DNA of 64,000 nucleotides from Microbacteriaceae bacterium (GTDB taxonomy: Bacteria > Actinomycetota > Actinomycetes > Actinomycetales > Microbacteriaceae). The notes beneath the pieces were generated by a model. It did no database searches and was not told where the DNA came from. It saw only the letters and a list, made by a program, of their open reading frames with translations. The DNA is taken from positions 62,001-126,000 of the forward strand of contig JAHEFZ010000003.1 in NCBI GenBank assembly GCA_024639935.1, written 5' to 3'. Each line of letters opens with the position of its first letter. Within the stretch, counting starts at the first letter, position 1. Below, piece by piece: positions 3,037 through 50,619 of the stretch. The position numbers were made by a program, and so were the translations under genes.

Positions 3037-4833
3037 ATGACCAGCAACACCCCTCCCGCGGAACGCCGCGGAAAGAACTTCGTTCCGCGCGATGCCGCAG
3101 CGAAGAAAAAGAGCCGTTTCGGCCGTCCCGCAGGCCCGGCAGGCGCAAGCCGACCGGCCCGAGGTACTCGCGACGACCGACCCGCGCGCGACGACCGTCC
3201 GGCGCGCGATGACCGCTACTCCAGCGGGACCCGTCCCGTGCGCGACGACCGCGGTGCACGCCCGGCGCGCGATGACCGCACTCCTCGCGCAGATCGCACC
3301 GACCGTGCCCCTCGAAACGAGTACGCGTTCCGCGATGGTCGTCCCGTTCGTGAAGGCCGTCACATGGATGCGAAAAGCAAGTTTGACCGACCTGTTCGTT
3401 CTACTCGGGATGAACGTCGTGATGTGCGTCCCGTGCGTGACGACCGAACTGCGCGCGACGACCGCTACTCCAGCGGGACTCGTCCCTTACGCGACGACCG
3501 TGGTGCACGCCCTGCGCGTGATAACCGCGCACCGCGCACGGACCGTAACGACCGACCTGCTCGCCGCGATTCCGACTTCTATCCCTCGCGTGACGAGAAG
3601 GCGTTTTACGAGCCAGGCGAAGACGTCGTACTCGAGCGCCTTCAGGCCATGGCCACCACGGCTGACGACGTCGACGGTGTGACGTTTGGCGACCTCGGGT
3701 TGGGTCGCAATATCGAATCCGCTCTGGTGCAACTCGGTGCGACCGCACCGTTCCCGATTCAGGCCGCAACCATCCCCGACGTGCTCGCAGGTCGTGACGT
3801 TCTCGGGCGCGGTCGGACCGGTTCGGGGAAGACCATTGCCTTCGCTGCTCCGATTGTCGAACTCCTCATGGCAAACGGTGGCGGCAAGAAGCGCAGCCAG
3901 GGTCGATCGCCTCGCGCACTGATTCTTGCTCCGACACGTGAACTCGCAATGCAGATCAATCGAACCGTGATGCCTATCGCAAAATCGGTCGGCCTCTTCA
4001 CGACAACCATCGTGGGTGGAGTCCCGCAAGGTTCGCAGGTTATGAGCCTTCGTCGTGGCGTCGACATTGTCATCGCGACGCCGGGTCGTCTCGAAGACCT
4101 TTCACGCCAACGCCATATCGACCTCTCGCAGATTCAGATAACTGTTCTCGATGAGGCCGACCACATGTGCGACCTTGGATTTCTCGAGCCGGTGCAGCGA
4201 ATCCTTCGCGACACCGCAGAGGGCGGACAGCGACTGTTGTTCTCGGCCACTCTCGACAAGGGTGTCGCCTCGATCATCGACGAGTTCCTCCCCGAGCCCG
4301 CAATCCACGAGGTTGCTGGTGAAGACCAGTCGTCGTCGACCATTGACCACCGTGTGTTCATCATTGACCACCGCGACAAGATCCCGCTGATCGAAAAACT
4401 CGTCCGCCGTGACGGCAAGACACTCGTGTTCACTCGCACTCGTGCGTATGCCGAGCAGCTCGCCGACGAGTTAGAGGACGCGGGAATACCGGCGACCAGC
4501 CTCCACGGCGATCTCAACCAGTCGCGTCGAACCCGGAATCTTGAGCGACTCACGACGGGTCGCGTCAACGTCCTCGTTGCTACCGATGTGGCCGCACGAG
4601 GAATTCATGTCGACGACATTGACCTCGTCATCCAGGCGGACGCACCTGACGAGTACAAGACCTACTTGCACCGCTCTGGACGAACCGGTCGTGCTGGCAA
4701 GGCCGGAACCGTGGTCACCCTTATTCCCAAGCAGCGCCAACGACGGATGACCGACCTCCTGAACCGAGCCGAGATTCAGGCCATCATGGTCCCGACTCGA
4801 GTCGGAGACCCGCACCTCAACAACCTCGTTTAA
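3037..4833 (+). CDS. DEAD-box ATP-dependent RNA helicase
   Basis: The 598-residue protein has about 190 residues of Arg/Asp-rich low-complexity sequence (RDDR, RPAR) followed by a full helicase core. The core motifs are visible in order: the Q-motif region, GRGRTGSGKT (Walker A), PTRELA, DEADHM (DEAD box), SAT, RGIHVDD and HRSGRTGRAG. It probably unwinds structured RNA in cold adaptation, ribosome assembly or mRNA decay. The disordered N-terminal tail is likely RNA-binding; such proteins more often carry this tail at the C-terminus. The start at 3037 was chosen for the AGGAAG ribosome site and because the upstream 73 codons have no helicase or Arg/Asp character. Confidence 0.93.
   Translation: MTSNTPPAERRGKNFVPRDAAAKKKSRFGRPAGPAGASRPARGTRDDRPARDDRPARDDRYSSGTRPVRDDRGARPARDDRTPRADRTDRAPRNEYAFRDGRPVREGRHMDAKSKFDRPVRSTRDERRDVRPVRDDRTARDDRYSSGTRPLRDDRGARPARDNRAPRTDRNDRPARRDSDFYPSRDEKAFYEPGEDVVLERLQAMATTADDVDGVTFGDLGLGRNIESALVQLGATAPFPIQAATIPDVLAGRDVLGRGRTGSGKTIAFAAPIVELLMANGGGKKRSQGRSPRALILAPTRELAMQINRTVMPIAKSVGLFTTTIVGGVPQGSQVMSLRRGVDIVIATPGRLEDLSRQRHIDLSQIQITVLDEADHMCDLGFLEPVQRILRDTAEGGQRLLFSATLDKGVASIIDEFLPEPAIHEVAGEDQSSSTIDHRVFIIDHRDKIPLIEKLVRRDGKTLVFTRTRAYAEQLADELEDAGIPATSLHGDLNQSRRTRNLERLTTGRVNVLVATDVAARGIHVDDIDLVIQADAPDEYKTYLHRSGRTGRAGKAGTVVTLIPKQRQRRMTDLLNRAEIQAIMVPTRVGDPHLNNLV
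3199..3531 (+). repeat. Intragenic repeat in the helicase tail
   Basis: Two copies of a roughly 80-base unit, 249 bases apart in frame, encode the same peptide pattern DDRYSSGTRPxRDDRGARPA. A 20-base core is identical at 3211-3230 and 3460-3479. It reflects internal duplication of the Arg/Asp-rich tail. Confidence 0.75.
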
Positions 4834-4842
4834 CGACAATCG

Positions 4843-4892
4843 CAATGCCCACTCGGCTCTGCAATCGCGTGCAGAAGTTAGAGTGGGCATTG
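4843..4892 (+). terminator. Nested hairpin after the helicase gene
   Basis: A 12-base perfect inverted repeat (CAATGCCCACTC at 4843-4854 and its complement at 4881-4892) encloses a second one (TCTGCA/TGCAGA at 4858-4863 and 4870-4875). It begins 10 bases after the helicase stop. There is no long T-run. The right arm overlaps the -10 box and start codon of the next gene. Confidence 0.6.
4879..4884 (+). promoter_or_regulatory. -10 box (TAGAGT) of the UbiA-family gene
   Basis: TAGAGT lies 7 bases before the GTG at 4892, the leaderless spacing seen repeatedly in this window. It is embedded in the hairpin arm. Confidence 0.5.
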
Positions 4893-5734
4893 TGATTCGC
4901 CGACTTTTTGAAATCTCTCGTCCCGTTCTGTGGGTCAACACGATCGGCACCACGGTTGTCGGCATGTGGTTGTCCGGTTTCTTGTGGACCTGGGACATTC
5001 TGCCCATCCTCATATGGGTCACTCTGCCGTTCAACTTGTTGATCTACGGAATCAACGACATTTACGATCAAGACACCGATGCGGAGAACGACCGCAAAGG
5101 TGGATTCGGCGGGGCCAAAATCAAATCCACCGAGGTTTCCTTAATCAGGTGGGGCGTCGTCGTGCTCAACGCACCATTTCTCGCCTATTTCGCGGTCACG
5201 GTTCCCCTCGCCGCGTTCCAGTGGATGTTGGCCTACACGTTTTCGTTCTGGCAGTACTCGTCGACGCCGCTTCGGTTCAAAGCGCGACCCGTTTGGGACT
5301 CGATCAGCAATTCTGACTACGCCTTCCCACTCGCGTTCGTGCCACTCGCCCTCGAGGTCGAGCCGATGTGGCCGGCGGTCATCGGGCTCATGGCGTGGAG
5401 TATGGCGAAACACGTGTACGACGCAATTCAGGACATCGATGAGGACGCTTCGGCGGGAATCGTCACCACCGCGGTGAAGTTCGGCGTCAAGGGTTCGTTG
5501 GTGTGGTCTGGCACATGGTGGGTCGTCTCGACCATTGCATTCGCCATGGTGAACGTGCCGGTCGCGATTGTGTCAGGACTGATCTCGGGGTGGCTCCTCG
5601 TCGCGAACTGGCGAACTCCGACAAGTCGCGAAGCGAAGCGTTTGTATAAATTTTCGGTTGCGTTCCCGTATGTTGCGGGGGCGGTCGCCGGCGTTCAATT
5701 GGTGACGGGCATCACGCTCGGGCTGTATCCGTGA
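4892..5734 (+). CDS. UbiA-family prenyltransferase (lycopene elongase-like)
   Basis: A 280-residue membrane prenyltransferase with about 8 hydrophobic helices. The first Asp-rich motif is NDIYDQDTD and the second lies in IQDIDEDASAGIVTTA, which resembles lycopene elongases of C50-carotenoid makers (archaeal Lye, actinobacterial CrtEb/LbtBC) more than MenA or COX10. It overlaps the CrtI-like gene by four bases (GTGA), so the two act together, probably in lengthening or modifying a carotenoid or isoprenoid chain in the membrane. The start is uncertain: GTG 4892 is favoured for its leaderless promoter; GTG 4883 would add three residues. A true MenA lies elsewhere in the window (40754), which argues against a quinone role here. 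Confidence 0.8.
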   Translation: MIRRLFEISRPVLWVNTIGTTVVGMWLSGFLWTWDILPILIWVTLPFNLLIYGINDIYDQDTDAENDRKGGFGGAKIKSTEVSLIRWGVVVLNAPFLAYFAVTVPLAAFQWMLAYTFSFWQYSSTPLRFKARPVWDSISNSDYAFPLAFVPLALEVEPMWPAVIGLMAWSMAKHVYDAIQDIDEDASAGIVTTAVKFGVKGSLVWSGTWWVVSTIAFAMVNVPVAIVSGLISGWLLVANWRTPTSREAKRLYKFSVAFPYVAGAVAGVQLVTGITLGLYP

Positions 5735-7152
5735 CGCCTCGCCGAATTGTCGTCATCGGGGCAGGACTCGGCGGCTTGTCGTCGGCCGCACTACTTTCAC
5801 GAGCGGGACACGACGTGACGGTTATCGACAAAAACGACTGGATCGGCGGCAAAAGTAGACGTATCGAGGTCGCCGGTCAGCGCATTGACACCGGACCGTC
5901 ACTCGTTACCTTTCCTGCCGCGCTCGAAAAATTCTTTGACCGATTCGACGAGCTAGGTCCAGCTGGCGCGTCGACGGCGCGCGAAATCGCGCCCCTCGTG
6001 CTTGAACGCCTTCCCGAAGTCGGGCGCTACTACTTTCGTGGTGATGTTGCCAATCTTCCCGTCGAAACAGGACACTCCTGGCGAGAACCGTGGGACCGAT
6101 TCGAGGCGGAACACGGTCCCCTTGGTCACCACATCACCACGATGCTGACGAACGACCCCTGGGATCCCGCGATTTATCCGGCAGCGGCTGCATTGTTCCG
6201 CCGTTATGGATCGCGCCTCAACACTGACCGTTATCTTGAAGGCCTCGACTGGATGCCCGAAAACCTTCGCGAAGTCATCTCGATTCACACGCTCAACGCG
6301 GGAGTATCCCCAGCCAAGACGTTAGCGCTGTTCGCGACCATGCCTGCTGTCATGTCAACGGACGGCGTCTGGGTCCCGAACGGTGGGGTGAACGAGATCC
6401 CTCGAACCATTGCGAGGCTCGCGACGGAATCGGGGGCAACGATTCGACTTGGTGAGGCGGTCATGTCGGTGTCGCGCGGGAAAGTCATCACGCACTCAGC
6501 GGAATACGACGCGGATATCGTGGTCAGCGGTCTCGATGCCGGAATTCTCGAACGACTTCTCGGTCAGCGGGCTCGAAAACCGAAAGCACTGTCCTGTTCG
6601 GGCATCGCCGTCTTCGCGGTACTGGACGAGGAACTGCCGGCCGAGATCGTCACGCACTCGGTCATCATGCCGGATGAACCCTCGAATTTGTATGAGAGCA
6701 TTCGGACAAAGTCGCTACCAAACCAGACGATGGCGTTCCTCAATTATTATCGGGCCGGACACATCTATCCAAATGACCGTCCGACCGCCGCCATCTTGCT
6801 CACCGCCCCGCCGGACGGCAAGCGATACGACATCGAACACGAGTGGGCGCAGGGCGAAATGCGCCGAATCAGCAACGTCATGGGACTCCCGCGACAACTC
6901 GGTGCGATGATCACCGACCACACCGTGTTTCACCCGGAATACTTCGCGGGTTTCGGTGCGGTTGGCGGGGCGCTGTACGGCGAGGGACATCCGTGGTGGC
7001 AAAGCGGCCCGTTCCACAAGCCCGGTTATTCGTCCAGGCGTCGGCCATGGCTCTGGCGGGTTGGCGCGTCGGTTCACCCCGGTGGAGGTGTTCCGGCCGT
7101 TCTCGGTGGAGCGATGATCTCGACAAACCGCCTACTCGCGAGCCTCGACTAG
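5731..7152 (+). CDS. CrtI/CrtD-like FAD-dependent carotenoid desaturase or oxidoreductase
   Basis: A 473-residue flavoprotein with an N-terminal dinucleotide-binding fold (VVIGAGLGGLSSA, residues 6-18), a glycine-rich IGGKSRR segment near 40, and the C-terminal signature HPGGGVPAVLGGA near 445 that is diagnostic for phytoene desaturase relatives. It is translationally coupled to the UbiA gene by a GTGA overlap. In bacterioruberin-type pathways a CrtI paralogue desaturates the product of the UbiA elongase; that role is the best inference. No phytoene synthase, GGPP synthase or cyclase gene lies beside it, so the substrate must come from elsewhere or is not a carotenoid. Confidence 0.82.
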   Translation: MTPRRIVVIGAGLGGLSSAALLSRAGHDVTVIDKNDWIGGKSRRIEVAGQRIDTGPSLVTFPAALEKFFDRFDELGPAGASTAREIAPLVLERLPEVGRYYFRGDVANLPVETGHSWREPWDRFEAEHGPLGHHITTMLTNDPWDPAIYPAAAALFRRYGSRLNTDRYLEGLDWMPENLREVISIHTLNAGVSPAKTLALFATMPAVMSTDGVWVPNGGVNEIPRTIARLATESGATIRLGEAVMSVSRGKVITHSAEYDADIVVSGLDAGILERLLGQRARKPKALSCSGIAVFAVLDEELPAEIVTHSVIMPDEPSNLYESIRTKSLPNQTMAFLNYYRAGHIYPNDRPTAAILLTAPPDGKRYDIEHEWAQGEMRRISNVMGLPRQLGAMITDHTVFHPEYFAGFGAVGGALYGEGHPWWQSGPFHKPGYSSRRRPWLWRVGASVHPGGGVPAVLGGAMISTNRLLASLD

Positions 7153-40753: not shown

Positions 40754-41758
40754 ATGTCATCGCGAAACCCAAAAAAGAAGCGTCCGAATGGAAACCGTAG
40801 TGGACGGCCCAGCACCCAGAAAATCGTCGCGCACGCCTCACAAGGGCAGGCAACGGTGCGCACGGCCCGGTTCCGTGACTGGATTTCCGCTGCACGGCCC
40901 GCGACTCTGGGACTGGGAATTGCGCCGGTGCTTCTGGGCTGGAGCGCGGCCATCTTGCAGTTCCTTCTCGACGACATCAACCCGTGGGACGCGCTTCCCC
41001 TCACGGTCGTCTCACTCTGTTTCGTGGTTGCTCTCACCCTGCAAATCGGCGTGAACTTCGCCAACGACTATTCGGATGGAATTCGCGGAACAGACACCCA
41101 TCGCGTCGGCCCTGCGCGGCTCACGGCGTCGGGTGCCGCTCCCGCGAAGCAGGTTCGCGCTGTCGCCTTCGTTTTCTTCGGAGTTGCAGCCGTTGCGGGG
41201 GTTGGAATCACCGCGCTCACACAGTTGTGGTGGCTCCCCGCCGTCGGTGCGGGCGCGATCGCCGCTGCGTGGTTCTACACCGGCGGACGAAAGCCTTACG
41301 GTTATGCCGGACTGGGCGAACTCATGGTTTTTATTTTCTTCGGACTCGTCGCGACAACGGGCACCGCGTTTCTGCTTGTCAGGGCGGTCTGGATCGACAG
41401 CATTCTCGCCGGTGTTGCGATGGGGCTTTTCTCGATGGCGGTCCTTCACATCAACAACGTTCGCGACCGAGCGACAGATATTGCCGCCGGCAAACGGACG
41501 CTCGCTACTCGGATACCGCTGTGGCTGGGACGAGCTTTTTACACGTTTTTGCTCCTCGCCCCTTTTGGGCTCCTCGTGTATTTCTCGTTGATTCTCATTT
41601 CAGCGTTTTGGGGATTCTTCGCCCTGTTTATCGCGGCGCCCGCACTTCTCATCACCTGGACCGCACAGCACCCGCGCGAATACGTGTTGGTGTTGAAGCT
41701 GACGGTGTGGACGAGTGTCACCTACGCGGTATTGCTGGGGTACGCGTTCGCCTTTTAG
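40754..41758 (+). CDS. menA: 1,4-Dihydroxy-2-naphthoate polyprenyltransferase
   Basis: A 334-residue UbiA-family membrane enzyme that attaches the polyprenyl tail. It shows ARPATLGLGIAPVLLG (first helix), the substrate motif NFANDYSDGIRGTD near 100, and the second Asp motif NNVRDRATDIAAGKRT near 235. A Lys/Arg-rich tail of about 40 residues precedes the first helix. The stop abuts the sdaA stop on the opposite strand. Confidence 0.95.
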   Translation: MSSRNPKKKRPNGNRSGRPSTQKIVAHASQGQATVRTARFRDWISAARPATLGLGIAPVLLGWSAAILQFLLDDINPWDALPLTVVSLCFVVALTLQIGVNFANDYSDGIRGTDTHRVGPARLTASGAAPAKQVRAVAFVFFGVAAVAGVGITALTQLWWLPAVGAGAIAAAWFYTGGRKPYGYAGLGELMVFIFFGLVATTGTAFLLVRAVWIDSILAGVAMGLFSMAVLHINNVRDRATDIAAGKRTLATRIPLWLGRAFYTFLLLAPFGLLVYFSLILISAFWGFFALFIAAPALLITWTAQHPREYVLVLKLTVWTSVTYAVLLGYAFAF

Positions 41759-43129
41759 CTAGCACTCGACTACGTTGACGGCGAGGCCGCCCGTCGACGT
41801 CTCTTTGTACTTGTTCGACATGTCGAGACCGGTTTGCCGCATCGTCTCGATGACCGTGTCGAGCGAGATCTTGTGGGAACCGTCGCCTGCCAGTGCGAGG
41901 CGCACGGCGGCCACCGCAGTGCCAGCGGCTATCGCGTTGCGCTCGATACACGGCATCTGAACGAGCCCGCCTACTGGATCGCAAGTGAGCCCCAGGTTGT
42001 GTTCCATCGCGATCTCAGCGGCATTTTCGATTTGACGCGGAGTCCCGCCGAGAATCGCGGCGAGCCCGGCGGCGGCCATGGAACAGGCTGACCCGACCTC
42101 TCCCTGACAACCGGCCTCAGCACCCGAGATGCTCGCGTTGCGCTTGTACAGCGTTCCAATAGCACCGGCGGTGAGCAGGTAATCGCGCGATATTTGCTCA
42201 CGGGAAATCTTTTTGAACCGCTCCGCGAAATACCCAACTGCCGGGATGATTCCGGCCGCGCCATTGGTGGGCGCCGTGACGACACGCATTCCCGCGGCGT
42301 TCTCTTCGTTGACGGCAATCGCGAAGGCTTGCAACCATTCGTTGCTGAGTGAGCCGGGCTCTTCCACTGCTTCTTGGGCGCGGAGGTGCCGTGCGAGGCC
42401 AGCCGCGCGGCGCGTGACGTTCAACGACCCGGGAAGCGTTCCCTCGTGTTGGAGTCCGGCCTCAATGCACGATGACATGGCTGACCAGATGCCGGCGAGG
42501 CGTGCGTCCACCACTTCGTCGCCATAAATCGCAACGGCATTCGCGCGCGCCACGTCGGCGATGCTCATCCCCGTTGAATCGCACAACGCGATAAGTTCAT
42601 CGCCGTTGTCGAAGGGGTGGGGCAGTGTGGTGTCGGTAACCGGCGCGGGTAGCCCGATTTCATCATCGGATTCGACGAAGCCACCCCCCACAGAGAAATA
42701 TGTTCGCGAGAAAACCTCGACACCACCCGCGTCGAGCGCGTCGTAGGTCATGGCGTTCGAATGATGCGGGAGTCGCGTCATGGGCCGCAAAGCGATGTCG
42801 GATTCGGCGAATGGAATCGTTCGGCCTCCCACGGTGACGATTCCCGAAATGATCGCGCGTTCCATCGCAGTAATGACCGAGTTCGGATCGCACGTTTCGG
42901 GGGCGGCCCCTTCGAGACCGGCGATGATGGCATTCGTTGTTCCGTGTCCGACGCCCGTCGCGCCGAGTGATCCGAAGAGCGACACCCGAATCCGCACCAT
43001 CGCTCCGAGTTGACCGGCGTCGGTTAGCTCGGCAACGAACCTGCGCGCCGCTCGCATCGGGCCAACGGTGTGCGAACTCGACGGGCCGACGCCAATGGTG
43101 AAAAGATCCAGTGCAGTGAGAACGCTCAC
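41759..43129 (-). CDS. sdaA: L-serine ammonia-lyase, iron-sulfur type
   Basis: A 456-residue single-chain serine dehydratase giving pyruvate and ammonia. It has an N-terminal beta domain (SVLTALDLFTIGVGPSSSHTVGPMRAA) and a C-terminal alpha domain with the cluster-ligand Cys in GSACSMAAAG, LTCDPVGG and MPCIERN. The same-strand permease gene lies upstream, but a terminator separates them, so sdaA likely has its own promoter. In context it could drain serine made from glycine released by the neighbouring catabolic genes, which is inference. Confidence 0.95.
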   Translation of the reverse strand: MSVLTALDLFTIGVGPSSSHTVGPMRAARRFVAELTDAGQLGAMVRIRVSLFGSLGATGVGHGTTNAIIAGLEGAAPETCDPNSVITAMERAIISGIVTVGGRTIPFAESDIALRPMTRLPHHSNAMTYDALDAGGVEVFSRTYFSVGGGFVESDDEIGLPAPVTDTTLPHPFDNGDELIALCDSTGMSIADVARANAVAIYGDEVVDARLAGIWSAMSSCIEAGLQHEGTLPGSLNVTRRAAGLARHLRAQEAVEEPGSLSNEWLQAFAIAVNEENAAGMRVVTAPTNGAAGIIPAVGYFAERFKKISREQISRDYLLTAGAIGTLYKRNASISGAEAGCQGEVGSACSMAAAGLAAILGGTPRQIENAAEIAMEHNLGLTCDPVGGLVQMPCIERNAIAAGTAVAAVRLALAGDGSHKISLDTVIETMRQTGLDMSNKYKETSTGGLAVNVVEC

Positions 43130-43158
43130 AATGTGTTTCTGCTATCTATGGGAGAAAA

Positions 43159-43194
43159 GACGCCTGTGAGCCGACTAATCGGCCCACAGGCGTC
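43159..43194 (-). terminator. Terminator of the permease gene
   Basis: A 10-base perfect stem (GACGCCTGTG/CACAGGCGTC) with an inner GCCG/CGGC stem, followed on the minus strand by TCTTTTCTCC. Confidence 0.88.
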
Positions 43195-43202
43195 CAAGGG
43201 TG

Positions 43203-44693
43203 TTATTTGTGTTCGCCGTGAACCGCGTAGCGCTCTTCAGGAGACATTACGAGGTTGTGTCGACCGATCAACGCGAAGTAGCCCAGGAAGAGCACATACA
43301 CGATGATGATGGCGTAGATGGCGGGAAGGAATGTCGGGTTCAACAGGAATCCGACGAATGCCAGTGCAGCAATCAATCCGGACACGGTTGCTCCACCGAC
43401 GCCCCACGGCGAGCGATACGGACGCTCGAGTTCGGGGTGCTTCACGCGCAGAATGATGAACGAGATCATCTGCATGAGGTAGGCGAGCATTGCCCCCCAC
43501 ACGGCGATGTTCAGGATGATGGCTCCTGCAACACCACTGATAGCACCGCTCGTGTCGGTTGCGGTCAAGTAGTCGAGCAGCACGAGTGCCGCGAGACCGA
43601 TGAGACCACCGATGAGAAGTGCAAGCCATGGTGTCTTGTTCTTGCCCGTGACGGACAGTCCCTTGAAGTAGTAGCCCGCGCGCGAAAGCGAGTACATGTT
43701 GCGCCCGTAGGCGAACATGATTCCCTGCAACGACGCAAGCAGACCGATCAGCGCGAAGATGCCGAGAACGGCAGCCCAGCCATCTCCCACAACAGCGCGG
43801 AAGCCGTCGAGAAGCGGTTCACCGGCCGCACCTGTCGCCTCAGCACCGAGAATTCCGGTGTTGATGAACATGACGAGGATACCGGTGACGATGAGGGTCC
43901 CGCGAGCCCAGAATCCAGCACGGGGGATGTCCTTCGACGGGTTGTGTGCTTCTTCTGCAGCGAGGGGGAGTTCTTCGATTCCGAGGAACAACCACACGCC
44001 AAAGGGAATCGCAAACAAGATGCCCATGATGCCGTGAGGGAGGAACCAGCTCGAACCGGCGGAACCATCTGCGGGGATGTTCCAGAGCATCGACCAATCA
44101 ATCTTGCCCGAGGCGAGAACCATTACGGAGAACAGGACGATAATCGCGAGCGAGATAATCGACACGACAATCGAGAACTGGAACGAGATGGCGGAACCGA
44201 GCGAGTTGAGTCCAACGAACACGGCGTAAAGAACGACATACCAGATCCACATGTTTCCCGTGAGGTCGAGATTCAACAGCTCAGCGGTCACACCGTTGAG
44301 ATAAGCCGCCGAGAAGAATACGACGACCGCGGTGGTCGCGACGTACTCGATTGTTTCGGCGAGACCCGTGACGAATCCGCCCCAGGGCCCCATTGCCTTT
44401 CGGGCGAACGAGTACGCGCCACCCGAGTGAGGCATTGCCGACGACATTTCACCGATGGCGAACATGAGCCCGTAGTACATGACGACGAGGATAAGGAATG
44501 CGACCAGCAGTCCTCCGAATCCGCCGGCGGCGACTCCGAAGTTCCACCCCGAGAAGTCACCCGAGATGACCGCGGCGATGGCGAGGCCCCACAGGCCCCA
44601 GACGCCGGCAGACCGAGTGAGCTGACGTTTATCGAAATAGTCCTTGCTTTGCTCGGTGTAGGAAACACCCGAGACTTTCAGTTTGTTAGACAT
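43203..44693 (-). CDS. APC-family amino acid/amine permease, ethanolamine permease-like
   Basis: A 496-residue transporter with 12 predicted helices. The first helices carry ISGDFSGWNFGVAAGG and the signature GEMSSAMPHSGGAYSFARKAMG; a middle segment reads FGVWLFLGIEELPLAAEE. These match, from memory, the ethanolamine permease (EAT, TC 2.A.3.5) branch better than the general amino-acid branches. It is divergent from the glutamine synthetase-like gene, with which it probably shares regulation. The ATG follows AAAGGA by 12 bases, and a TATGCT -10 lies at 44764-44769. Substrate is inference from sequence and context; a polyamine or amino acid is the alternative. Confidence 0.8.
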   Translation of the reverse strand: MSNKLKVSGVSYTEQSKDYFDKRQLTRSAGVWGLWGLAIAAVISGDFSGWNFGVAAGGFGGLLVAFLILVVMYYGLMFAIGEMSSAMPHSGGAYSFARKAMGPWGGFVTGLAETIEYVATTAVVVFFSAAYLNGVTAELLNLDLTGNMWIWYVVLYAVFVGLNSLGSAISFQFSIVVSIISLAIIVLFSVMVLASGKIDWSMLWNIPADGSAGSSWFLPHGIMGILFAIPFGVWLFLGIEELPLAAEEAHNPSKDIPRAGFWARGTLIVTGILVMFINTGILGAEATGAAGEPLLDGFRAVVGDGWAAVLGIFALIGLLASLQGIMFAYGRNMYSLSRAGYYFKGLSVTGKNKTPWLALLIGGLIGLAALVLLDYLTATDTSGAISGVAGAIILNIAVWGAMLAYLMQMISFIILRVKHPELERPYRSPWGVGGATVSGLIAALAFVGFLLNPTFLPAIYAIIIVYVLFLGYFALIGRHNLVMSPEERYAVHGEHK

Positions 44694-44763
44694 ACGACGT
44701 TGTAGTCCTTTCCCGTCGCGGGAACTTCCGCACCCACGACATTGTGTTGGCTAGGTAGTTGCG

Positions 44764-44769
44764 AGCATA
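44764..44769 (-). promoter_or_regulatory. -10 box (TATGCT) of the permease gene
   Basis: TATGCT on the minus strand about 70 bases before the permease ATG, leaving a leader with a ribosome site. Confidence 0.4.
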
Positions 44770-44793
44770 GACGAGATAGCACCCGAAAATCCA

Positions 44794-44802
44794 ACCTTTA
44801 GA
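44794..44802 (-). promoter_or_regulatory. Shared 9-mer TCTAAAGGT facing the permease
   Basis: The minus strand reads TCTAAAGGT within CCTCTAAAGG, itself nearly palindromic. The identical 9-mer lies on the plus strand at 44904-44912, facing the other gene. A candidate operator for the cluster's GntR regulator. Confidence 0.45.
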
Positions 44803-44876
44803 GGAAAATTTTTGTGCTGTTCATCTGCGGTGCTTTCGACAACGGTTACGCTGCTCCGCGAAGATTCGCAGGTAAG

Positions 44877-44914
44877 TTGACAAACACCCCTCACCTGGTG
44901 TTTTCTAAAGGTGA
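44877..44914 (+). promoter_or_regulatory. Promoter and operator of the glutamine synthetase-like operon
   Basis: A perfect -35 TTGACA (44877-44882) is followed by a dyad TCACCT-N12-AGGTGA (44891-44914) lying over the expected -10 region, which includes the shared 9-mer TCTAAAGGT (44904-44912). The layout suits repression by a dimeric regulator. The remaining 250-base divergent gap shows nothing else I can name. Confidence 0.5.
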
Positions 44915-44946
44915 CAAATCCAACCTCAACGAAGAGGAACTACACC

Positions 44947-46314
44947 ATGGTTCAACGTAACGGAATGCTCACCGTCCCCGAATTACAGAAACTCGTTGAC
45001 GGTGGTGAAATCGACACGGTCATCATTTCGTTCACCGACATGCAAGGGCGACTCGTCGGCAAGAGAATGTCGGCGCGGTTGTTTGTCGAAGACGCAATAG
45101 AGCACGGCGCAGAGTGCTGTAACTATCTGCTCGCCGTCGATGTCGAGAACAACACGGTTCCCGGGTACGAGTTTTCGTCGTGGGAAAAGGGGTACAACGA
45201 CATGGCGATGATTCCGGACATGTCGACTCTGCGAGTTGTTCCCTGGATTCCGCACACCGCGATGGTGCTCGCCGATCTGCAGACGACCGACCACGAACCT
45301 GTTCCCATCGCACCCCGTTCTCTGCTGACGGCACAGATTGATCGACTGAAGAAGATGGATCTCGTCCCGTATGTCGGCACCGAGCTCGAATTCATTGTTT
45401 TCGATGACTCGTTCCGTGACGCATGGGCCAAGGGTTACGACAACCTCCGTCCTTCCACGGACTACAACGTCGACTACGACCTCCTCGCGAGCAACCGCGT
45501 CGAGCCGCTGTTGCACGATATTCGCGTCAGCATGGATAGGGCTGGCATGTACTGCGAAGGCGTTAAGGGCGAATGTAACCTGGGCCAACAAGAAATCGCA
45601 TTCCGCTACGACACCGCACTCATCACCTGCGACAACCACTCGATTTACAAGAGCGGCGCCAAGATGATCGCCGATAACCACGGCAAGTCACTGACCTTCA
45701 TGGCCAAATTCAACGAACGCGAGGGAAACTCGTGCCATATCCACATCTCGTTCCGTGACACCAAAGGCAACCCCGTTTTCGCTGACAAGAGTGCGGAAAA
45801 TGGGATGTCCGACATGTTCCGTCACTTCCTCGCGGGACAGATCGCGCTCATGCGTGAGTTCACACTGTTGTTTGCGCCTAACATCAACTCGTACAAACGG
45901 TTCGCCTTCGGCTCGTTCGCGCCAACCGCGATTGCGTGGGGTCATGACAACCGAACCCTGTCGTTGCGCGTCGTCGGCCATGGTCATGGAATGCGCGTCG
46001 AGCACCGCGTCCCCGGGGGTGACGTGAACCAGTACCTCGCGGTCGCCGGGCTCATTGCCGCGGGTATCCACGGGATCGAAAACAAGTTGGAACTCGAAGA
46101 CCAGACCCGTGGTAACGGCTACGAAGCCGACAAGCCGCACGTGCCGACTTCGCTCCGTGAAGCGGCCGATCTATTCGAGAACAGCACGGCTGCCCGCGCG
46201 ATCTTCGGCGACGATGTTGTCAACCACCTCGTCAACGCAGCCCGCATCGAGATTCGCGCGTTCGACAGCGCAATCACTGACTGGGAGCGCGTCCGCGGTT
46301 TTGAGCGCCTCTAG
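44947..46314 (+). CDS. Glutamine synthetase-like gamma-glutamyl-amine ligase (GlnA3/GlnA4/PuuA type)
   Basis: A 455-residue type I glutamine synthetase fold. Active-site segments are intact: GTELEFIVFDD near 138 (metal Glu), VKGECNLGQQEIAF near 208, GNSCHIHISF near 262 (His and ATP site), SYKRFAFGSFAPTAIAW near 318, and RVEHRVPGGDVNQYLA near 350. The C-terminal adenylylation loop of true GlnA is absent. Together with its neighbours this marks a ligase for amines, making a gamma-glutamyl amide with ATP. Streptomyces GlnA4 does this with ethanolamine, GlnA3 with polyamines. The ATG 44947 follows AGAGGAAC; a GTG at 44911 is possible but lies within the operator. Confidence 0.85.
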   Translation: MVQRNGMLTVPELQKLVDGGEIDTVIISFTDMQGRLVGKRMSARLFVEDAIEHGAECCNYLLAVDVENNTVPGYEFSSWEKGYNDMAMIPDMSTLRVVPWIPHTAMVLADLQTTDHEPVPIAPRSLLTAQIDRLKKMDLVPYVGTELEFIVFDDSFRDAWAKGYDNLRPSTDYNVDYDLLASNRVEPLLHDIRVSMDRAGMYCEGVKGECNLGQQEIAFRYDTALITCDNHSIYKSGAKMIADNHGKSLTFMAKFNEREGNSCHIHISFRDTKGNPVFADKSAENGMSDMFRHFLAGQIALMREFTLLFAPNINSYKRFAFGSFAPTAIAWGHDNRTLSLRVVGHGHGMRVEHRVPGGDVNQYLAVAGLIAAGIHGIENKLELEDQTRGNGYEADKPHVPTSLREAADLFENSTAARAIFGDDVVNHLVNAARIEIRAFDSAITDWERVRGFERL

Positions 46315-47035
46315 TCAGCCCGTTATCGGCATCACGACGTACCGTCAACAAGCGAAGACGGGCGTGTGGGATGTCGATGCGGCGTTCCTCCACTCGGGGT
46401 ACATCGAGAGCGTGGCACGGGCAGGCGCAATCGCCGTGTTGTTACCTCCGCAACCCGCTTCGATGGACATCGCGGACCGCGTTCTCGACGGCATTGACGG
46501 ACTGGTATTTGCCGGCGGACGGGACATCAACCCCGAACGCTACAACCAAGATCCGGGCGAACACACCGACCAGCCCGATCTCCGGCGCGACGAGTGGGAG
46601 TTCACGCTGGTCAACGCGGCAATTCGGCGCGAGCTTCCGATCTTGTTCATCTGCCGAGGAGCGCAAGTTCTCAATGTGTATCGCGGTGGCACGTTGTTTC
46701 AACATCTTCCGGACATAGTGGGGAAGAACGATTACCAGCGAGGAGAAGCCCTGTTGACCGAGATGGAGATGACGGTGTCGCCGGGTACGATCCTTGAGTC
46801 CATTGTTGGATCCACGGTCACGGGGATGGTCTATCACCACCAAGCAATCGAAGGTCTTGGCTCTGGTTTGAGGGTGTCCGCTCGCACTGCAGACGATGTG
46901 GTCGAAGCAATCGAGATTGAAGACTATCCGTTCGGTGTCGCGGTGCAATGGCACCCCGAGGTCACCTCAGAAAAGGACGGTCGACTGTTCGACGCGCTAA
47001 CCTCCGCGGCGCGATTACAGAGGAGCACGTTATGA
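46301..47035 (+). CDS. Class I amidotransferase-like gamma-glutamyl hydrolase (PuuD type)
   Basis: A 244-residue alpha/beta enzyme that would split gamma-glutamyl amides into glutamate and an amine product. It has the peptidase C26 pattern: PVIGITTYRQ start, VFAGGRDINP near 70, nucleophile Cys in LFICRGAQVLNVYRGGT near 112, and HPEV near 222 completing Cys-His-Glu. The start is probably TTG at 46301, inside the last codons of the ligase gene, with GGGAG 12 bases upstream; no ATG or GTG fits better. The end is coupled to the dehydrogenase by ATGA. Confidence 0.83.
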   Translation: MSASSQPVIGITTYRQQAKTGVWDVDAAFLHSGYIESVARAGAIAVLLPPQPASMDIADRVLDGIDGLVFAGGRDINPERYNQDPGEHTDQPDLRRDEWEFTLVNAAIRRELPILFICRGAQVLNVYRGGTLFQHLPDIVGKNDYQRGEALLTEMEMTVSPGTILESIVGSTVTGMVYHHQAIEGLGSGLRVSARTADDVVEAIEIEDYPFGVAVQWHPEVTSEKDGRLFDALTSAARLQRSTL

Positions 47036-48387
47036 GTTACACGATTATCAACCCCGCTACCGGCGACGAAATGGAAACGGTCGAGCACCTTTCTGTGGAA
47101 GAAACCGACGACGCGATCGCCCGAGCGCGGGAGGCTCAAAAACGTTGGGCAGCGTTTGCCCCCGCCGAGCGCGCAGAGGCACTTCGTTCCTTCGCTCGGA
47201 CCGTTGAAGCGGACATCGAAAATCTCGCCCAGATTGAGGTTCGCAACTCGGGACACCCCATCGGACAGGCACGTTGGGAAGCGACGCATGTTCGGAATGT
47301 GCTCGACTATTACTCGGCCGCCCCCGAGAGACTCCTCGGAAAGCAGATTCCCGTTGCGGGCGGCATTGACATCACCTTCAACGAACCGCTTGGTGTTGTC
47401 GGGATCATCACACCGTGGAACTTTCCGATGACGATCGCATCCTGGGGGTTTGTTCCAGCACTCGCGGCGGGCAACGCCGTCGTCCTCAAACCGGCCGAAT
47501 GGACGCCGCTGTCGAGCCTCCGACTTGCCGAACTTGGCCGTAACTCCGGCTTGCCCGAGGGGCTCTTTCAAGTTCTCGCCGGAAAGGGAAGTGTTGTCGG
47601 TGAACGGTTCATCACGAACCCGGATGTGCGCAAAATTGTATTCACGGGCTCGACCGAAGTGGGCAAAAGTGTCATGCGTGGTGCAGCCGACCAGATTAAA
47701 CGAGTGACACTCGAACTCGGTGGGAAGAGCGCAAATATCGTTTTTGCCGATGCCGATATTGATAAAGCAGCAGCGACCGCGCCGTATTCTGTGTTCGAAA
47801 ACGCCGGTCAAGATTGTTGTGCCCGTAGCCGAATCCTCGTTGAGAAGTCAGTTCTCGACGAGTTCATGGCGAAGTTCGAAACCGCCGTCAAGGGTGTTGT
47901 CGTTGGCGATCCGACGAACGACGCGACCGAGGTTGGCCCTCTCGTACACTCTCAGCACCTCGCATCGGTCAGCACGTACCTAGACAAAGCAGACATCGCC
48001 TTTCGTGGGAGTGCGCCTGACGGACCGGGCAACTGGTTCGCCCCGACGGTCGCTCTCTCGCGCGGTCTCAATGACCCGTGCATGACGGACGAGATCTTTG
48101 GACCAATTGTCACGGTGCATGCGTTCGAGGACGAGGCGGACGCGATTTCCATCGCGAACGCAACGGAATTCGGACTCTCTGGCTCGATTTGGACCCGCGA
48201 TGTGGGACGCGCCATCCGGGTTTCCCGTGCGGTCGAGAGCGGCAATCTCTCGGTCAATTCGCACTCTTCCGTTCGGTACAACACCCCGTTCGGTGGATTC
48301 AAACAGTCGGGACTGGGACGCGAACTCGGCCCTGATGCCCCGCTTCACTTCACAGAAGAAAAGAACGTTTTCATCCCAGCGGACTAA
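47032..48387 (+). CDS. Aldehyde dehydrogenase (PuuC-like)
   Basis: A 451-residue NAD(P)-dependent enzyme. It shows the cofactor segment GIITPWNFPMT near 125, LKPAEWTPLSS near 150, GSTEVGKSV near 208, catalytic Glu in ELGGKSANIVF near 228 and catalytic Cys in NAGQDCCARS near 263. It is somewhat shorter than the usual 480-500 residues, mostly at the N-terminus. In this operon it should oxidise a gamma-glutamyl-amino aldehyde to the acid, which PuuD-like hydrolase can then cut. Confidence 0.88.
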   Translation: MSYTIINPATGDEMETVEHLSVEETDDAIARAREAQKRWAAFAPAERAEALRSFARTVEADIENLAQIEVRNSGHPIGQARWEATHVRNVLDYYSAAPERLLGKQIPVAGGIDITFNEPLGVVGIITPWNFPMTIASWGFVPALAAGNAVVLKPAEWTPLSSLRLAELGRNSGLPEGLFQVLAGKGSVVGERFITNPDVRKIVFTGSTEVGKSVMRGAADQIKRVTLELGGKSANIVFADADIDKAAATAPYSVFENAGQDCCARSRILVEKSVLDEFMAKFETAVKGVVVGDPTNDATEVGPLVHSQHLASVSTYLDKADIAFRGSAPDGPGNWFAPTVALSRGLNDPCMTDEIFGPIVTVHAFEDEADAISIANATEFGLSGSIWTRDVGRAIRVSRAVESGNLSVNSHSSVRYNTPFGGFKQSGLGRELGPDAPLHFTEEKNVFIPAD

Positions 48388-48406
48388 TCCCCAGAAAGGA
48401 ACCACC

Positions 48407-49195
48407 ATGTCCATTGAACAAATCGATCTCACCCAACGCCTGAAAGGCAAAGTCGCGGTCGTCACCGGCGGTGCGAGCGGTATCGGTCTTGCGACCGCCA
48501 AGCGCATGCGCGCCGAGGGTGCCACAATCGTCATCGCCGACATGGACCCGAAATCGGGCACCGCGGCAGCCGAGGAACTTGAGGGCACTTTCATTCAAGT
48601 TAATGTGGCGGATGAAGACCAGGTCAACCACCTGTTCGATGAGACGGTTCGCCTGCACGGCCGCGTCGACATCGCGTTCAACAATGCCGGCATTTCACCG
48701 CCCGACGATGATTCGATCGAAACCACGGAACTTCCCGCGTGGCAAAAGGTCCAAGACGTGAACCTCAAGAGCGTGTATCTGTGCTGTCGAGCGGTACTAC
48801 GTCACATGACCAAGCAGGGAAGCGGGTCGATTATCAACACGGCCTCCTTCGTCGCGGTCTTGGGTAGCGCCACCAGCCAGATTTCTTACACCGCAAGTAA
48901 AGGCGGTGTACTCGCAATGAGCCGCGAACTCGGCGTGCAGTTTGCGCGTCAGGGAATCCGGGTCAACGCGCTGTGCCCCGGGCCGGTCAATACGCCGTTG
49001 TTGCAAGAATTGTTTGCCAAGGATCCCGAGCGCGCTCAGCGTCGACTCGTCCACATCCCCATCGGACGCTTCGCCAAGCCGGAAGAATTGGCGGCGGCAG
49101 TAGCCTTCCTCGCGAGTGACGACGCGTCGTTTATTACCGGATCGACGTTCTTGGTCGATGGTGGAATCTCGGGCGCGTACGTCACTCCGGTCTAA
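48407..49195 (+). CDS. Short-chain dehydrogenase/reductase (SDR)
   Basis: A 262-residue classical SDR: TGGASGIGLA nucleotide loop near 20-30, NNAGISPP near 95, Ser in the NTASF region, and catalytic YTASK near 165. AAAGGA ribosome site upstream. Classical SDRs oxidise alcohols with NAD(P). In this operon, where no amine oxidase is seen, it could turn gamma-glutamylethanolamide into its aldehyde, an assignment that is inference. Confidence 0.85.
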   Translation: MSIEQIDLTQRLKGKVAVVTGGASGIGLATAKRMRAEGATIVIADMDPKSGTAAAEELEGTFIQVNVADEDQVNHLFDETVRLHGRVDIAFNNAGISPPDDDSIETTELPAWQKVQDVNLKSVYLCCRAVLRHMTKQGSGSIINTASFVAVLGSATSQISYTASKGGVLAMSRELGVQFARQGIRVNALCPGPVNTPLLQELFAKDPERAQRRLVHIPIGRFAKPEELAAAVAFLASDDASFITGSTFLVDGGISGAYVTPV

Positions 49196-49200
49196 CGGAC

Positions 49201-49974
49201 ATGGATTTCGACTTCTCCGTCGGTGAGACCGCAGGGACAACGGTCGGCTTTGATCGATCGTTGCTTCTTACACCGATTCGGGGCGGGAACACCTACGAAG
49301 AGACGGTCGAACGCATTCTCCAGACGATTCGACTCGGCTTGATTCACCCTGGCGAGCAATTGCCGCCGGAGCGAGAACTCGCCACCATGTTGGAAGTTTC
49401 GCGGGACACGGTTCGAGATGCGATTGCGTCGTTGTCAGAGGCGGGATACCTGTCGATTCGACGCGGGCGATATGGCGGCACGTTCATTGCCGAAACGATT
49501 CCCGCCGGACCCATCGTCATCGGAAGGGACGGTGATGTCATAGAACGACAACACTTCACCGTGTCGGATATTCATGACGTTCTTGTGCTGCGGGCCGTCC
49601 TCGAGCCCGGCGCGGCCTATCAAGCAGCGACAAACGACCTCACCGGGGAACTTCGCGAGCGCTTGTGGACGATCCATCAAGAAACGGCCAACGCGACTGT
49701 CGAGGAATATCGACGCTTTGATTCTCGGCTTCACCTCGTGATCGCAGAGATGGCGGGCTCGAATTCTCTGGTCAACCAAATCGCCCAATCCAGAGTGAAG
49801 GTCAATGAACTTCTCGACGGAATTCCCTTGCTCCCGCCCAATATTGCGCACTCGAACGAACAACACGAATCCATCGTCATGGCAATTTTGTCGGGACGAC
49901 CGGACGACGCTGAAGCGGCGATGCGCGCTCACCTCGAAGGTTCCGCGGCGCTGTTGCGGGGATTCCTGACCTAG
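49201..49974 (+). CDS. GntR-family regulator, FadR (FCD) subgroup
   Basis: A 257-residue regulator with an N-terminal winged helix (ERILQTIRLGLIHPGEQLPPERELATMLEVSRDTVRDAI, about 40-78; RRGRYGGTFI wing near 93) and an all-helical FCD ligand domain (about 120-250, with metal-type His/Asp residues such as in DSRLHLVIAEMAGSN). It starts five bases after the SDR stop, so it ends the catabolic operon and likely represses it at the divergent promoter region. Confidence 0.9.
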   Translation: MDFDFSVGETAGTTVGFDRSLLLTPIRGGNTYEETVERILQTIRLGLIHPGEQLPPERELATMLEVSRDTVRDAIASLSEAGYLSIRRGRYGGTFIAETIPAGPIVIGRDGDVIERQHFTVSDIHDVLVLRAVLEPGAAYQAATNDLTGELRERLWTIHQETANATVEEYRRFDSRLHLVIAEMAGSNSLVNQIAQSRVKVNELLDGIPLLPPNIAHSNEQHESIVMAILSGRPDDAEAAMRAHLEGSAALLRGFLT

Positions 49975-50225
49975 TTCTTCGTTGAATCAATTTGGTCGTC
50001 TTCGACATCCGAATCAATGTCGGGGGCAGGTCTTTCAACTCGGCGCTGAATGTCGGCAGCCACACGTTGACGCAGTCCATTGAGAAAGAGGACCGACAGA
50101 GCAAGCGAAATCAAACTTGCAAAGATGGCTCCCCCAATCCACCCTGTGCCGAGAACGAGGAGGAAGACGAGTGCGACAATGAAGATTCCCAGCCGGGCGA
50201 GGGTGTAGGTGATCCACGGGCTCAT
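49971..50225 (-). CDS. DUF4229 family small membrane protein
   Basis: An 84-residue protein with two helices (MSPWITYTLARLGIFIVALV and a second near 30-50), then an acidic tail. It matches the DUF4229 family, found near menaquinone genes in Actinobacteria; function unknown. The start at 50225 was chosen because TACGAT sits 6 bases upstream and because MSPW fits the family's start; a start at 50246 would add seven residues. Its 3' end overlaps the GntR stop by four bases. Confidence 0.75.
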   Translation of the reverse strand: MSPWITYTLARLGIFIVALVFLLVLGTGWIGGAIFASLISLALSVLFLNGLRQRVAADIQRRVERPAPDIDSDVEDDQIDSTKN

Positions 50226-50231
50226 AGCTAC

Positions 50232-50237
50232 ATCGTA
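50232..50237 (-). promoter_or_regulatory. -10 box (TACGAT) of the DUF4229 gene
   Basis: TACGAT on the minus strand, 6 bases before the ATG at 50225. Confidence 0.5.
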
Positions 50238-50256
50238 TGTGTCCATCCAGCGCGCC

Positions 50257-50262
50257 TAGAAT
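50257..50262 (+). promoter_or_regulatory. -10 box (TAGAAT) of the PLDc_N gene
   Basis: TAGAAT lies 6 bases before the GTG at 50269. Confidence 0.55.
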
Positions 50263-50268
50263 AAAAAC

Positions 50269-50619
50269 GTGCTCGCTCGTATTCTGTTGGTTGGATCATT
50301 TGTGCTTGTCGCCGTCATGGTTTATGCAATCGTCGACGTCGCAATCACTCCCGCGTCGAAAGTTCGCGGGCTGCCGAAACCGATTTGGTTTGTTGTCGTC
50401 ATCCTGTTCCCTCTAATCGGGGCAATCCTCTGGTTCATCATGGGCAAAGGCCGCCGTGGGGCCACGTCACGACCTGCCACGCCGACCGATATTGTCGACC
50501 GTGGTCCGACCAGCGGCCCGTTTTCGACGGAATCAGTTGATGACCGAATTGCTCGACTTGAAGAGGAACTTCGCCGACTCGATGAGGAGGGTGAAAACCC
50601 GCCCAAGGATTCGGCGTGA
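50269..50619 (+). CDS. PLDc_N-domain membrane protein
   Basis: A 116-residue protein with two N-terminal helices (ILLVGSFVLVAVMVYAIVD; PIWFVVVILFPLIGAILWFI, whose second helix ends in the FIMGKGRR motif of the phospholipase D N-terminal domain family). A disordered, acidic coiled tail follows (residues 70-116). No PLD catalytic domain is present. It overlaps menD by four bases (GTGA), so it is in the menD operon; function unknown. Confidence 0.82.
   Translation: MLARILLVGSFVLVAVMVYAIVDVAITPASKVRGLPKPIWFVVVILFPLIGAILWFIMGKGRRGATSRPATPTDIVDRGPTSGPFSTESVDDRIARLEEELRRLDEEGENPPKDSA

Follow-up and report, generated by a model that had tools for sequence, protein, structure and literature searches.

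A probable ethanolamine gamma-glutamylation cluster in a Microbacteriaceae genome and its gene-neighbour links to glycine and serine metabolism

Introduction

The breakdown of ethanolamine, a constituent of membrane lipids, by gamma-glutamylation has already been published as a proposal, for Streptomyces and for marine bacteria (PMC6529630, PMC9397018). The present analysis concerns a gene cluster in a 64,000-nucleotide stretch of a Microbacteriaceae bacterium genome (GCA_024639935.1, contig JAHEFZ010000003.1, positions 62,001 to 126,000), referred to below as the window. This divergon, made up of a permease gene on one side and genes for a ligase, a hydrolase, two dehydrogenases and a regulator on the other, is very probably an actinobacterial cluster for the same route. 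New here are the gene-neighbour support for glycine as the product and an inverted pair of TCTAAAGGT elements in the divergent promoter region.

In Streptomyces, the ligase GlnA4 was assayed, and SCO1611, SCO1612 and SCO1615 were proposed to carry out alcohol oxidation, aldehyde oxidation and hydrolysis; S. coelicolor is described as having no permease (PMC6529630). The later steps are also tabulated in Table 2 of PMC9397018, with the Chromohalobacter salexigens families PF00120, PF00465, PF00171 and PF05013. A parallel operon is known from Phaeobacter, where its proteins are raised on phosphorylethanolamine; an EtoX that binds ethanolamine with a Kd of 7.9 uM is also reported, and Csal_0678, whose number is next to that of Csal_0679, is listed with EtoX in an ethanolamine-binding hidden Markov model set (PMC10132767). 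In the available text of these sources, glycine as the end product is inferred rather than shown (PMC6529630, PMC9397018, PMC10132767). The view taken in a first-pass annotation of the window, that the later steps are not well described, does not hold: they were proposed in PMC6529630, tabulated in PMC9397018 and paralleled in PMC10132767.

Organization of the window cluster and predicted route

The first-pass annotation had placed a divergent permease and ligase pair ahead of hydrolase, aldehyde dehydrogenase (ALDH), short-chain dehydrogenase/reductase (SDR) and GntR genes in one operon. Translation and profile scans of the window confirmed every one of these genes, with its strand and position. 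The permease (43203 to 44693, minus strand; TIGR00908, PF00324/PF13520) belongs to the APC superfamily and is of the Eat/ethanolamine-permease type. Divergent from it runs a plus-strand series of five genes, which opens with a glutamine synthetase (GS)-like ligase of the GlnA4/Csal_0679 type, predicted to be a gamma-glutamylethanolamide synthetase (44947 to 46314; PF00120, 319 bits). The ATG at 44947, preceded by a stretch resembling a ribosome-binding site, is a likelier start for this gene than the GTG at 44911. A class-I glutamine amidotransferase/peptidase C26 hydrolase resembling PuuD follows (46301 to 47035; PF07722, 208 bits). It is a predicted gamma-glutamylglycine hydrolase, has the Cys (ICRG) and His-Glu (WHPE) stretches in common with PuuD, and probably starts with the TTG at 46301, overlapping the end of the ligase gene.

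The ALDH (47032 to 48387; PF00171, 498 bits), predicted to oxidise gamma-glutamyl-aminoacetaldehyde, in turn overlaps the end of the hydrolase gene with its likely ATG start at 47032. Next comes the SDR (48407 to 49195, likely start ATG 48407; NF004713/PRK06057, 499.8 bits, cut-off 404), a predicted dehydrogenase of the alcohol gamma-glutamylethanolamide. In SDR proteins, an Asp after the second strand generally goes with NAD rather than NADP, and the Asp found there in the window protein (VIADMD) hints at NAD. The final gene of the operon encodes a GntR/FCD regulator (49201 to 49974; PF00392 and PF07729). Since the five genes overlap or nearly touch, they are read as one operon. No FAD amine oxidase occurs among the cluster proteins scanned with Pfam profiles, as had been noted at first reading.

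The reactions, the substrate and the regulation of the cluster are predictions from sequence. The permease would bring in ethanolamine, which the ligase would couple to glutamate, using ATP. The SDR would oxidise the alcohol group of gamma-glutamylethanolamide, the ALDH would turn the resulting aldehyde into gamma-glutamylglycine, and the C26 hydrolase would then free glycine and regenerate glutamate. The GntR/FCD protein would govern the operon, perhaps as a repressor acting via the TCTAAAGGT elements. Glycine would go on to the glycine-cleavage system, serine hydroxymethyltransferase (SHMT) and serine deaminase. The genome encodes GcvP, SHMT and SdaA; its one GcvP (contig C7) and one SHMT (C16) lie away from the cluster. 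This sequence of steps from ethanolamine to glycine and glutamate had been put forward in the first-pass annotation; it is supported by the comparison given below and agrees with the proposal for SCO1611-1613/SCO1615 in the available text of PMC6529630. A complete gene set for the predicted route is thus kept in a 1.3 Mb actinobacterial assembly (1.31 Mb, 23 contigs, 95.8% complete).

Conservation of the cluster

Ligase loci were collected from several sources. In a family sample, 69 of 150 genomes (71 places) gave a ligase match with an E value of 1e-60 or lower, and the same score limit applied to a phylum sample gave 131 of 396 genomes and about 142 places, more distant GS-like proteins included. 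The loci taken for comparison were 68 of the 71 family places (all but the window's own place and two pieces of genome G038), 60 phylum loci hand-picked for spread, five plasmid stretches, the puu region of E. coli and, from 594 named candidates, the 80 best. The total was 213 ligase loci, or 208 unique loci once five with identical ligase DNA were subtracted. The ligase was at least 50% identical in 173 unique loci, 139 of which were flanked by at least 6 kb on either side and are called full-flank loci below. A gene was counted as linked when it lay within 6 kb of the ligase, and the relatedness of the loci is not factored into these counts.

All 68 family loci have hydrolase and ALDH genes, 67 have the SDR, 62 the GntR gene and 59 the permease, which is on the strand opposite to the ligase in 58 of these 59. 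Across the 139 full-flank loci with at least 50% ligase identity, the SDR and the ALDH are each linked in 136, the hydrolase in 134, the GntR gene in 111 and the permease in 95. The cluster arrangement is not a matter of chance. In the band of 42 to 50% ligase identity (21 full-flank loci), an SDR or an iron-type alcohol dehydrogenase (iron ADH) is present in 18 loci and an ALDH in 13, and one locus of the band, L205, has a PuuB-like gene 5 kb from the ligase. Below 42%, an SDR or iron ADH is found in 6 and a hydrolase in 5 of 11 loci.

Two loci deserve separate mention. Genome G302, in addition to a Streptomyces-type cluster (L151), has a second ligase copy (L157, 58%) that lacks SDR and ALDH genes; glyA lies at a distance of about 6 kb from it. 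L202 belongs to an Arthrobacter plasmid of Lake Untersee that is typed as conjugative. There, an amidase gene and an inositol-monophosphatase-family gene (4584 to 6824) precede the ligase cluster; their products might release ethanolamine from larger molecules.

Several points weigh against assigning the cluster to ethanolamine. The top NCBIfam model for the permease is indeed the ethanolamine permease TIGR00908, but the score of 340 bits is below the cut-off of 382. In three full-flank loci (L157, L169 and L268) neither an SDR nor an ALDH match accompanies the ligase, a hydrolase match is missing in five (L157, L160, L163, L166 and L167), and a C26 hydrolase or a formylglutamate amidohydrolase is present in just 8 of the 21 full-flank loci of the 42 to 50% band. 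The enzyme set is equally compatible with other small amino alcohols. With regard to the reference system, the assay in the Streptomyces route covers the first enzyme only, according to the available text of PMC6529630; the identity figures for Streptomyces come from loci other than that of S. coelicolor (SCO1613).

The ligase and its relatives

A sequence search of solved structures (phmmer) returned 11zs at 1.6e-117 and 5dm3 at 5.7e-113, followed by the next match at 8.5e-47. The structure titles identify 5dm3 as Csal_0679 from Chromohalobacter salexigens and 11zs as a protein of Brucella melitensis; by sequence both score far above GlnA, GmaS and the naphthylamine ligase. The predicted model of the ligase, with a mean predicted local distance difference test (pLDDT) of 82, gives a Z of 48.9 and 43% identity against 5dm3. 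When the ligase is aligned with GlnA1 of the same genome, the EXE, HXH and NSY(K/R)R stretches prove to be conserved, and the DGSS stretch of GlnA1, which belongs to the ammonium site, is replaced.

Among the best 80 of 594 named loci, the closest relatives of the ligase are mostly from Microbacteriaceae, and the family name is drawn from these relatives. The nearest is L208, from a Micrococcales metagenome-assembled genome (MAG); genome G131, listed under the same genus as the window, has exactly the same ligase DNA as L208. The ligases of 32 named Streptomyces loci are 59 to 63% identical to that of the window, and the tree places the window ligase among them, although several forks are weak; the branches of PuuA and of three GS proteins from the window's genome are long, and the deep forks of the tree are weak as well.

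Glycine and serine genes near the ligase

At least one of the genes gcvP, gcvT, gcvH, glyA and sdaA lies near the ligase in 11 of the 208 unique loci (L074, L093, L097, L118, L153, L157, L161, L209, L212, L216 and L273). The control genes atpD, prfB, glnE and ald gave 0 each near the ligase. Two further controls gave matches: menD at L074/L208, a case of same-genus synteny, and at L175 (40%), and glnA1 with eight matches at 37 to 39% identity, which are taken for GS-like paralogues. Unbroken gene runs join the cluster with glycine and serine genes at two loci. In L209, from a Microbacteriaceae MAG, sdaA and the permease gene point leftward, and the ligase, hydrolase, ALDH, SDR, GntR, gcvT, gcvH and gcvP genes follow rightward. 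In L273, from Amycolatopsis sacchari, the order is ligase, hydrolase, ALDH, SDR, gcvP, gcvT and sdaA. The permease gene is followed by gcvP, gcvH and a partial glyA in L118, and by gcvP in L212 (Leucobacter MAG). For L209, Pfam profiles confirmed gcvT and gcvH, and for L118 they confirmed gcvP. L153 (39 to 43%) and L161 (gcvH only, 44%) were retained and are weaker than the other loci; the gcvT matches of L154 and L160 (28%) were dropped as weak. The linkage of gcv, glyA and sdaA genes to the ligase lends independent support to glycine as the end product.

In the window itself, sdaA (41759 to 43129, minus strand; TIGR00720, 604 bits) lies on the permease strand, 73 bases past the permease stop. 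It encodes L-serine ammonia-lyase, which may be a downstream step. Besides the window, sdaA is near the ligase in L074 (the same as L208), L093, L209, L216 and L273; among the 68 family loci, just 2 have it near the ligase. Considered by distance, sdaA lies at most 13 kb from the ligase in 4 of the 40 family genomes having both genes, where 0.37 would be expected (p 0.0006), in a test that ignores phylogeny and in which two of the four genomes represent one genus. A gcvP gene within 10 kb of the ligase was seen (by eye) in only two family genomes, G047 and G121, and is weak evidence alone.

The gap between the permease and sdaA contains a strong terminator-like hairpin followed by UUUUCU (43158 to 43195, minus strand; -34.7 kcal/mol, z -7.2), which is not among the reports of a simple terminator scan. 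Hairpins of unlike sequence occupy the same place in L209 (6194 to 6275) and L216 (6200 to 6264). Simple read-through into sdaA is therefore disfavoured, and co-transcription of permease and sdaA was set aside as proof of the serine step. The earlier suggestion that glycine is drained through the adjacent sdaA consequently stands only in part: it is plausible, with glycine and serine genes repeatedly occurring close to the cluster, yet in the family sdaA is rarely nearby and a hairpin intervenes. The link between the window sdaA and the ethanolamine cluster is only suggestive.

The chances are about even that several actinobacterial lineages couple ethanolamine use by gamma-glutamylation to the cleavage of glycine and the deamination of serine. 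If they do, ethanolamine would be taken fully to pyruvate, CO2 and ammonia and would serve as a source of both carbon and nitrogen. L273 and L209 are the clearest cases of such coupling, and the window retains the sdaA part. The composite gcv/sdaA runs offer starting points for testing the route directly where a permease is present. No link of the ethanolamine ligase cluster to gcv or sdaA appeared among the open-licence titles and abstract beginnings listed, which is weak evidence of absence.

Alternative explanations

The alternative that survives best is a cluster with the same chemistry acting on another amino alcohol, such as 1-amino-2-propanol or 3-aminopropanol, and it is improbable. 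The enzyme classes would suit any primary amino alcohol. Sibling pathways may exist, given that the distant ligases of L198 and L199, 34 to 35% identical to that of the window, are accompanied by matches to an iron ADH, a C26 hydrolase and an ALDH; these two loci are perhaps pathways for other amino alcohols. However, relatives of the window ligase are tied to ethanolamine in the available text of PMC6529630 and PMC10132767, and the gcvT, gcvH, gcvP and sdaA genes linked in some loci point to glycine. With glycine as the product, rather than alanine or beta-alanine, the substrate would be a two-carbon amino alcohol.

Polyamine catabolism of the Puu type, with the amine oxidase encoded elsewhere in the genome, is very improbable. 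The first-pass annotation had named a co-regulated PuuB-like oxidase outside the cluster as evidence that would overturn the ethanolamine assignment, and a PuuB-like FAD oxidase is in fact present (C16:44018-45145, L288; 30% identical to E. coli PuuB). Moreover, the ligase shares 32% identity with PuuA, the hydrolase 29% with PuuD and the ALDH 36% with PuuC. The oxidase gene has neighbours of its own, however, namely a class-III aminotransferase, an Lrp-like open reading frame (ORF) and an ALDH-like ORF, and is likely to belong to a separate amine or polyamine cluster. PuuB-like genes were found near the ligase in 0 of the 139 full-flank loci (tblastn, E up to 1e-8, two queries), and Puu-type polyamine use was set aside on this ground. 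The Puu route is not known to involve an SDR, which also counts against it. Polyamines could be served by other GS-like ligases of the genome, whose GS family includes, besides the full GlnA, a second gene at C2 (428 bits), one on C16, and gene pieces where C12 ends and C23 begins.

Two of these GS-like genes have neighbours of note. The ligase at C16:105487-106449 (L289) stands beside a cytochrome P450 (PF00067) and, by eye, an APC-permease-like ORF, and is perhaps part of another gamma-glutamyl-amine route with P450 hydroxylation. The ligase cut by a contig end (C12 end, C23 start; L290, L291) is adjoined by a class-I amidotransferase and a second cytochrome P450.

That the ligase is a true glutamine synthetase or a nitrogen-assimilation gene with unrelated neighbours is hardly credible: it has the PF00120 fold and a structural Z of up to 44.2 to glutamine synthetases, but its model TIGR00653 score of 221 bits is far from the Type I cut-off of 429, the DGSS stretch is absent, and the genome already has a full GlnA at C2 (TIGR00653, 636 bits). 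The Eut ethanolamine ammonia-lyase route was likewise set aside, as a search that detected the E. coli control gave no EutB match in the window's own assembly (95.8% complete).

Divergent promoter region

Two TCTAAAGGT elements lie between the divergent genes, one on the permease side (44794 to 44802, minus strand) and one on the ligase side (44904 to 44912, plus strand). They are the only two copies in the window, one facing each divergent gene, and 0 of 100 shuffles gave two copies. In 89 permease-ligase regions (84 distinct), the motif TAAWGGT was present in the ligase direction in 56 and in the permease direction in 24, compared with 1.7 and 1.1 expected from mononucleotide shuffles. TAAWGGT and TCTAAAGGT may represent a GntR half-site or part of a promoter.

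A perfect inverted repeat, AAACACC-N8-GGTGTTT, is located upstream of the ligase (44882 to 44903), with one match in the window and 0 in shuffles. It is given low weight as the operator of the regulator, and was set aside, because among the 89 divergent regions only that of the window has it. A sigma-70 scan of positions 41700 to 50300 found no promoter-like site, with an average of 2.8 in shuffles.

Comparison with known systems

The Streptomyces glnA4 cluster (SCO1610-1615) has a ligase, an ALDH, an SDR, a glutamine-amidotransferase-type hydrolase and a regulator in common with the window cluster and, in the available text, has the same proposed route to glycine and glutamate, with a permease in some species (PMC6529630). 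Compared with the 32 named Streptomyces loci, the window proteins are 66 to 73% (SDR), 56 to 64% (ALDH), 43 to 49% (GntR) and 38 to 44% (hydrolase) identical; a permease is present in 16 of the 32 loci and is merely 38 to 40% identical to that of the window. In these loci, the hydrolase, the permease where present, and the GntR gene occupy one strand, and the ligase, ALDH and SDR genes the other. This layout matches the genes listed in Fig. 2 of PMC6529630 and counts in favour of the ethanolamine reading. The window differs from it in that the permease is divergent from the ligase, hydrolase, ALDH, SDR and GntR genes, and in having sdaA as a neighbour.

The Chromohalobacter/Phaeobacter operon (EtoVWX, ETAGA, GAADDH, GETADH and GGAH) has the same ligase family, an ALDH and the same proposed intermediates, as far as the available text of PMC10132767 and PMC9397018 goes. 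It employs a TRAP transporter, an iron ADH and a hydrolase of the formylglutamate-amidohydrolase family, whereas the window has an APC permease, an SDR and a C26 hydrolase. Three alphaproteobacterial plasmid loci (L203, L204 and L205) similarly pair a related ligase with an ALDH, but have an iron ADH, an N-formylglutamate amidohydrolase and an RpiR regulator; L205 has an amino acid permease in place of the TRAP transporter. The Pfam families of the L204 iron ADH and formylglutamate amidohydrolase differ from those of the window SDR and C26 hydrolase, and L203 and L205 are annotated alike. Proteins placed under the column heading 'orthologues' in the table of PMC9397018 therefore seem to be distinct enzymes that fill equivalent positions. 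An unrelated alcohol dehydrogenase in the same position is an argument for the alcohol-oxidation step.

The E. coli Puu pathway has the gamma-glutamylation logic and relatives of PuuA, PuuC and PuuD in common with the window cluster, which is without PuuB and has an SDR instead. Viewed against these systems, the window cluster is a well-supported further member of the known pathway cluster.

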